From NCBI GenBank assembly GCA_030429345.1, contig JAUIFJ010000004.1, positions 118,916-182,915 on the forward strand: DNA of 64,000 nt, read 5' to 3'. Shown piece by piece: positions 50,708 through 52,280 of this stretch; within the stretch, counting starts at the first letter, position 1, and every line of letters begins with the position of its first letter. Source of the stretch: a bacterium (GTDB lineage: Bacteria > CAIWAD01). Under the pieces are notes generated by a model. The model saw only the letters and a list, made by a program, of their open reading frames with translations, searched no databases and was not told the DNA's origin. Made by a program: the position numbers and the translations under genes.

Positions 50708-51202
50708 ATGGGATTCCGACGACGGAAACAAATGCGTTGTCCGGGGCACGACTACGCGGCCGGAGGAGTGTATTTCATCACGATCAAGACGAATGCACCC
50801 TGGAATCCCTTCGGCCTGCAACTGCGCAATGGTGTACGACTGAATGAGGCAGGAAGGATTGCCCGGGAGGAATGGGTACGCACATCCGCCTTGCGTCCGG
50901 GAGTCCGACTGGATGCACACGTGATCATGCCGGATCACATGCATGCCCTCCTTGTAATCCACCGAAGCGGGACGATCGGTGCGGCCAGGGAGAAGAATGC
51001 ACAAACCCTGCCATCCGGATCCCTGGGCGCCATTGTCACGGGGTACAAATCCGCCGTCACACGGCGAATCCGGAACGAAATCCCGTGGGGCGGATTGTTC
51101 GAATGGCAACGCGATTACCACGATCGCATCGTACGGGACCCCGGCGCCATCCACCACATTCGAAAATACATCCAAATGAACCCATATCGCCACCCCCGGT
51201 AG
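50708..51202 (+). CDS. REP-associated tyrosine transposase (RAYT)
   Basis: 164 aa, typical RAYT size, of the IS200/IS605-like Y1 HUH superfamily. The metal-binding HUH is H77-M-H79 in VIMPDHMHALLVI; candidate nucleophiles are Tyr137 (QRDYHDRIVRD) and Tyr154 (IRKYIQMNP). The N-terminal GGVYFITIKT matches the family's first beta-strand. AGGGGG precedes ATG 50708. RAYTs bind and cleave REP hairpins; unlike IS200 they usually stay as single copies. Here the stop codon TAG (51200-51202) lies inside the GTAG tetranucleotide of a REP hairpin, and a large repeat array follows. An upstream in-frame ATG (50681) is less likely. Confidence 0.9.
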   Translation: MGFRRRKQMRCPGHDYAAGGVYFITIKTNAPWNPFGLQLRNGVRLNEAGRIAREEWVRTSALRPGVRLDAHVIMPDHMHALLVIHRSGTIGAAREKNAQTLPSGSLGAIVTGYKSAVTRRIRNEIPWGGLFEWQRDYHDRIVRDPGAIHHIRKYIQMNPYRHPR

Positions 51203-51221
51203 GGGCGGCCTGCGGCCGCCC
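51199..51221 (+). repeat. REP hairpin overlapping the RAYT stop
   Basis: GTAG (51199-51202) directly followed by an 8-bp hairpin GGGCGGCC-TGC-GGCCGCCC (51203-51221). A 5' GTAG at the foot of the stem is the established recognition tetranucleotide of RAYT/REP systems. The RAYT stop codon is part of it. Confidence 0.9.
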
Positions 51222-52280
51222 TTTCCCCCCACCCACCGATCACGGCACGCCCCCGCGACATTGTACGAACCCGCGCGCATGGTAATTCGTGGATGGAACG
51301 GGTGATTGCATTGCCCAATTACGCGCCCACCCATCACGGCACGCCCCCGCGACACCGTCCGGCCCCGCGCACGGTGTTGCGTGGACGGAACGGGTGGGAT
51401 TCGCGGACGGTGGTTGGGGCGTGTGGGGGAGGGCGGCCGCAGGCCGCCCCTACCGGGGGGCGGTTGAAATGGTGTGGGTGGATGCATGCCGGTGTAATTT
51501 GCGATCAACCCGTAACGGCACGCCCGCGCGAAACCGTTCGATCCACGCATGGTTTTGCGTATACGGATCGGGCGGATGCGTCGCCCATTTCCCACCCACC
51601 GATCACGGCACGCGCCCGCGACATTGTACGAACCCGCGCGCATGGTAATTCGTGGATGGAACGGGTGAATGCATTGCCCAATTACGCGCCCACCCACACA
51701 CGGCACGCCCCCGCGACATCCTCCGGATCCGGATACGGTGTTGCGTGGACGGAACGGGTGGGATTCGCGGACGGTGGTTGGGGCGTGTGGGGGTGGGCGG
51801 CCGCAGGCCGCCCCTACCGGGGGCCGGTTGAAATGGTGTGGGTGGATGCATGCCGGTGTAATTTGCGATCAACCCGTAACGGCACGCCCGCGCGAATCCG
51901 TTCGATCCACGCATGGTTTCGCGTATACGGATCGGGTGGATGCGTCGCCCATTTCCCATCCGCCGATCACGGCACGCGCCCGCGACATTGTACGAACCCG
52001 CGCGCATGGTAATTCGTGGATGGAACGGGTGAATGCATTGCCCAATTACGCGCCAACCCACACACGGCACGCCCCCGCGACATTGTACGAACCCGCGCGC
52101 ATGGTAATTCGTGGATGGAACGGGTGAATGCATTGCCCAATTACGCACCCACCCACACACGGCACGCCCCCGCGACACCGTCCGGCCCCGCGCACGGTGT
52201 TGCGTGGACGGAACGGGTGGGATTCGCGGACGGTGGTTGGGGCGTGTGGGGGAGGGCGGCCGCAGGCCGCCCATACCGGG
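51222..52280. repeat. Higher-order palindromic repeat array downstream of RAYT
   Basis: Nine modules share a header close to ACGGCACGCCC(C/G)CGCGA, each followed by a different hairpin: type a at 51241, 51604, 51968 and 52063; type b at 51335, 51699 and 52158; type c at about 51514 and 51878. The order is a-b-c, a-b-c, a-a-b, so a 363-364-bp unit is repeated twice and then truncated (a3 to a4 and a4 to b3 are 95 bp). Each type b module carries a REP hairpin in reverse orientation (51431-51449, 51795-51813, 52254-52272). Type a and b modules end CGTGGA(T/C)GGAACGGGTG. The copies are nearly identical, so expansion is recent. No coding capacity is supported. Confidence 0.92.
52254..52272 (-). 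repeat. REP hairpin closing the array
   Basis: GGGCGGCC-GCA-GGCCGCCC in reverse orientation to the RAYT-proximal copy, so the array is bounded by inverted REP hairpins. Its flank reads GTAT instead of GTAG on the relevant strand, so the recognition tetranucleotide is degenerate here. Confidence 0.85.

Follow-up and report, generated by a model that had tools for sequence, protein, structure and literature searches.

Repeat clusters beside RAYT (TnpA_REP) genes are well documented. Modular BIMEs lie next to one third of rayt genes; they consist of basic modules linked head-to-tail, and four of them include the 3' end of the gene (Nunvar 2010, PMC2817692). In SBW25, tandem REPIN clusters lie beside each RAYT (Bertels & Rainey 2011, PMC3116915). 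When we recomputed the repeats next to rayT of E. coli K-12, we found an array of 2.0 copies of a 101-bp unit, beginning 4 nt past the stop codon. The unit of a classical BIME is two REPs in opposite orientation. Since tandem clusters beside RAYTs have already been published (PMC2817692, PMC3116915), the locus that we describe here has an arrangement of a known kind, and the original prediction that no described system is organized this way does not hold.

The window (the whole stretch of 64,000 nucleotides that we analyzed) forms the last part of a 182,915-bp contig from a 4.24-Mb draft genome in 92 contigs. The ORF call, motifs, profile matches, and an AlphaFold2 model identify a RAYT gene at 50708..51202 (+ strand), which encodes 164 amino acids. 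The protein has the HUH motif PDHMH (H77 and H79), a WQ motif (residues 133-134), and a tyrosine in KYIQMNP; H77-x-H79 and WQ are invariant in 17 sequences. Identity to RAYT homologues is 29-42%. Pfam's IS200/IS605-like Y1 domain (PF01797) matches with 27.4 bits, above the cut-off of 23. The protein resembles RAYTs more closely than IS200 transposases: the NCBIfam RAYT model NF047646 matches with E = 1.5e-14 (54.1 bits), as against E = 0.066 for NF033573, and among all PDB chains the top match to the AlphaFold2 model (built on a two-sequence alignment, with a mean pLDDT of 71) is 4er8, a RAYT in complex with a REP hairpin (E = 1.7e-7, TM 0.55). A caveat is that both this protein and the genome's second RAYT (58.6 bits) miss the curated cut-off of NF047646, which is 80 bits. 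The gene is single-copy and looks domesticated. We rejected a phage origin, as we searched viral contigs for relatives of the RAYT and found none.

The REP at this locus is GTAG-GGGCGGCC-TGC-GGCCGCCC. It forms the clear palindrome of the locus, GTAGGGGCGGCCTGCGGCCGCCC, which is the sole strong hairpin there. A palindrome search located four copies. The only + copy (51199..51221) sits at the left edge of the array, and its GTAG tag supplies the TAG stop codon of the RAYT gene. The other three are inverted (- strand): REP 1 at 51431..51453, after module b1; REP 2 at 51795..51817, after module b2; and REP 3 at 52254..52276, which has the tag GTAT, closes the array on the right, and lies about 10 nt from the hisC stop. 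REPs in opposite orientation do stand at both ends, as had been claimed, but they are not a feature of the ends alone, as there is an inverted copy after each b module (n = 3). No REP was found 5' of the RAYT gene; the downstream one overlaps the stop codon. Across the genome, we found 24 sites for the palindrome with at most 1 mismatch, four of them at this locus (a reversed control pattern gave 6), and many copies keep the GTAG tag. It is common for GTAG REPs to provide neighboring ORFs with their TAG stop (Di Nocera's group 2013, PMC3733652). A REP also provides TAG as the RAYT stop in four surveyed relatives (L111, L113, L124, and L125), and this genome's second RAYT also has a REP next to the gene, with TAA as the stop. 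Elsewhere in the genome (L046:5040-8410, or G000:C11:31-34.4 kb), the window's REP occurs three times next to a 78-bp composite of other palindromes, itself in three copies; we found no Y1 gene near this cluster.

Downstream of the RAYT gene, tandem repeat detection finds an array of a 364-bp unit at 51228..52280 (unstranded). TRF reports a period of 364 with 2.4 copies and 96% matches at 51228-52083, as well as 2.7 copies of 95 bp at 51968-52219. A short segment follows the + REP (51222..51241, + strand; from edge alignment), and the array contains nine modules of ~90 bp, all on the + strand. Each module opens with an exact match to a 17-bp header (n = 9), and we assigned the types from the header matches and from alignments of the bodies: a1 (51242..51335), b1 (51336..51430), c1 (51515..51604), a2 (51605..51699), b2 (51700..51794), c2 (51879..51968), a3 (51969..52063), a4 (52064..52158; assigned by its body, which comes directly after an a tail), and b3 (52159..52253). 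Thus, a single RAYT gene is followed by about 1 kb of higher-order array in which an a-b-c unit occurs twice and then gives way to a-a-b, just as the original prediction had it. The header array is not due to chance: with up to 3 mismatches allowed there are 12 matches, of which nine are perfect and in the array, while shuffles are expected to give 4.05. Outside the array, matches within the window have at least 2 mismatches, as chance predicts.

Each 364-bp unit consists of one inverted REP and three related modules. Even without their headers, the module bodies align above shuffles (z = 4.7, 7.5, and 4.9; no score from 500 shuffles was as high). Identity is about 50-70% between types and 92-100% within a type. 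Judging by these alignments, the three types are paralogues that diverged from a single module. Because the bodies align above shuffles, the array has three levels: an ancestral module, three diverged versions of it, and duplication of the whole unit. Module b2 also has a short diverged patch at 51719-51734, with seven changes in 16 nt relative to b1 and b3 and near identity in the rest, which suggests template switching or gene conversion.

The three types had been taken for three different hairpins, which is not supported for module a. Whether treated as DNA or RNA, module a folds worse than most of its shuffles (191 of 200 were at least as stable on the + strand). Structure in modules b and c is no more than moderate, with some excess folding, and the folding z-score of the entire unit as DNA is about 0 on both strands. 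A search of the region against Rfam matched no family. We therefore rejected a structured RNA. A genome-wide search for the modules, as proposed with the original prediction, found the modules and the unit at this locus only, which rules out, as far as this genome goes, that they occur at many loci. We also rejected a dispersed mobile module on this basis.

The edges of the array coincide with the edges of REPs. On the left, a CGCCC that both share joins the sequence to the right of the + REP to the tail of module c. On the right, homology ends a few bases beyond the last inverted REP. Published TnpA_REP enzymes cut at CT dinucleotides close to the REP structure (PMC8266576), and a CT sits right at the foot of three REPs here (the + REP and inverted REPs 1 and 3). 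We are confident that the locus is a REPtron, in which a TnpA_REP/RAYT gene is accompanied by cognate GTAG REPs and an adjacent BIME-like tandem cluster. That the RAYT drove the growth of the array is a separate claim, which concerns one genome and extends to it what is known of REP cleavage by other RAYTs, and we give it an even chance. By analogy with those enzymes, the RAYT would recognize the GTAG-tagged hairpin in single-stranded DNA, nick near its foot, and rejoin the ends. REP-bounded segments beside the gene would be repeatedly excised, joined, and re-inserted, leaving head-to-tail copies, and later unequal crossover between the 17-bp headers would alter the number of modules. Most likely, the modules are inter-REP DNA that is carried along as a passenger and not further substrates of the transposase.

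Several observations count against this explanation. There is one REP per unit, always in the same orientation, and none upstream of the gene; the profile cut-off is missed; and kilobase arrays are rare at 34 other RAYT loci (see below). Also, header recombination explains the duplication of module a. In a4, an a body follows an a tail, so the crossover behind one duplication falls within the module's first 19 bp (the header). If the C at header position 10 of a4 derives from a b module, then the interval would narrow to positions 10-19. Such a crossover needs no transposase, as ordinary recombination can do it. This favors the main alternative, which is that ordinary tandem duplication (by slippage or RecA-dependent unequal crossover) merely took place beside a RAYT and its REPs, with the transposase uninvolved. 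We consider this alternative a substantial possibility, if not one that we would bet on. The match between the array edges and the REP edges speaks against it.

Other Y1 genes in the genome bear on this alternative as well. A search with PF01797 found ten matches besides the window's RAYT. We scanned sampled stretches of the genome for arrays, including 400 kb of control sequence, and arrays of ~1 kb lie within 2 kb of 3 of the 11 Y1 transposases, with none in the control. At one of these genes (L048:3241-5499, in G000:C44), which is IS200-like, repeats with a 443-bp period lie on both sides, and another IS200-like gene (L052, in G000:C46) adjoins an array of 306 bp x 3.0. (On the same contig, a 1,013-bp tandem duplication with 84% matches, L052:9764-11885, is 2.3 kb from the IS200-like gene.) That the sampled ~1-kb arrays all adjoin Y1 transposases argues against ordinary duplication: by a rough, post hoc estimate on few events, the probability of finding all three near Y1 genes by chance is about 6e-4, or ~7e-3 without the window's array. 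Smaller arrays, on the other hand, also occur away from Y1 genes, as ordinary duplication would have it. The control holds six of them (172-406 bp, none larger), and four of the six contain palindromes that are repeated with the unit. The second RAYT (L055, G000:C55:1-370; 34% identical) has its last codons and stop inside a downstream repeat of ~75 bp, which carries a REP of its own and is cut short by the end of the contig.

We then asked what lies beside RAYT genes in other genomes. RAYT relatives were present in 68 of the 386 genomes searched, and we compared 35 RAYT loci, including the window, with up to 9 kb of flanking sequence. (Close relatives are few, with no more than five genomes in the family, class, or phylum. 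hisC is present in the three other genomes of the family, but when we looked there for an empty site we found no conservation of the neighboring genes within 1.5 kb.) Among these loci, a kilobase array directly at the gene is unique to the window. Small arrays are close to the gene at L107, L108, L111, and L117. As for larger tandem repeats, there is a tandem copy of the RAYT gene at L115 and a 700-bp array 2.7 kb downstream at L105. L045, from another lineage, has 2.4 kb of repeats with three hairpin types after its RAYT, in a unit that includes the 3' end of rayt. This locus, the second RAYT of the window's genome, and rayT of E. coli show a similar arrangement, which supports the REPtron reading. 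Large arrays are thus absent from most other RAYTs, as expected if ordinary duplication made this one. We rejected the general rule that RAYTs carry large arrays, as the 34 other loci mostly have small near-gene arrays at most.

Two side observations come from the same survey. A contig ends within 170-740 bp of seven of the surveyed RAYT genes (L093, L097, L108, L111, L114, L120, and L122), which fits with repeats breaking short-read assemblies. And a GTAG REP palindrome lies inside the ORF in 37 of 55 RAYT relatives (L093-L127 and L152-L171), at a position that is nearly always 11-26 residues after the HUH motif, and in most cases above shuffles of synonymous codons; in genome G145, the intragenic REP is the sole copy of that palindrome. 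REPs inside TnpA_REP genes have already been published for subclass 2.4 (Quentin 2018, PMC6006769), so we do not consider them to be new.

A bolder version of RAYT-driven growth is that the RAYT and the IS200-like Y1 transposases of this lineage actively assemble any DNA between REP hairpins into kilobase-sized satellites next to the genes that encode them. The array would then record strand-transfer activity, and the header would be a preferred site of strand exchange. We think that this is improbable.

The remaining explanations fare worse still. The header modules might be a second substrate, or a structured DNA or RNA element, that is maintained by the RAYT. The nine copies do keep the header nearly exactly while the bodies diverge to about 50-70% identity, and there is the excess folding in b and c. 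But no copy of a module occurs elsewhere in the genome, module a folds worse than shuffles, the unit as a whole folds no better than expected, and there is no match in Rfam, so we consider this very unlikely. Slightly less probable again is that collapse or expansion in a short-read assembly made the apparent order of units: this is a draft in which repeat copy number may be wrong, and the array at L055 ends its contig, but here the contig passes through the array, the flanks are unique, and the units are 95% alike with private variants, and the copy number of the array is less certain.

The locus offers a concrete test of whether RAYT-driven or recombination-driven amplification forms REP clusters. 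Its value as a test is that its edges match REP edges, that one duplication is mapped to a few bases, and that the genome has three such arrays. The locus also shows that clusters adjacent to RAYTs can be multi-module and kilobase-sized outside of the well-studied Gammaproteobacteria.

How does the REPtron described here compare to known ones? A REP-bearing module is repeated head-to-tail, as in BIMEs, but REP orientation does not alternate within the unit: there is one REP per 364 bp, always inverted. Nor is this a REPIN (two inverted REPs as one dispersed hairpin), as the modules and the unit are confined to this locus. In the open-licence literature, we found no description of a one-REP unit with three paralogous modules. 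Most of the RAYT relatives resemble, by description, TnpA_REP subclass 2.4 (PMC6006769), with long GC-rich GTAG REPs, several double-foot REPs, and REPs inside the gene; unlike these, the window's RAYT gene has no internal REP. The clusters of SBW25 (PMC3116915) are likewise tandem repeats that include flanking DNA beside each RAYT, but they are made of REP doublets that are also dispersed, and the window's module unit is not. In the Smal4 RAYT-BIME of Stenotrophomonas (PMC2817692), the REP downstream of rayt is similarly within a modular head-to-tail cluster, but its inter-REP segments have no mutual homology, whereas the window's unit has three related modules with a common header. The REPtron of E. 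coli (rayT/tnpA_REP with flanking BIME-2) also has head-to-tail, REP-bearing units directly downstream of the RAYT, but its units are ~100 bp and have REPs in both orientations. Overall, the array in the window is an unusually elaborate case of an arrangement that is known beside RAYT genes, including that of E. coli.
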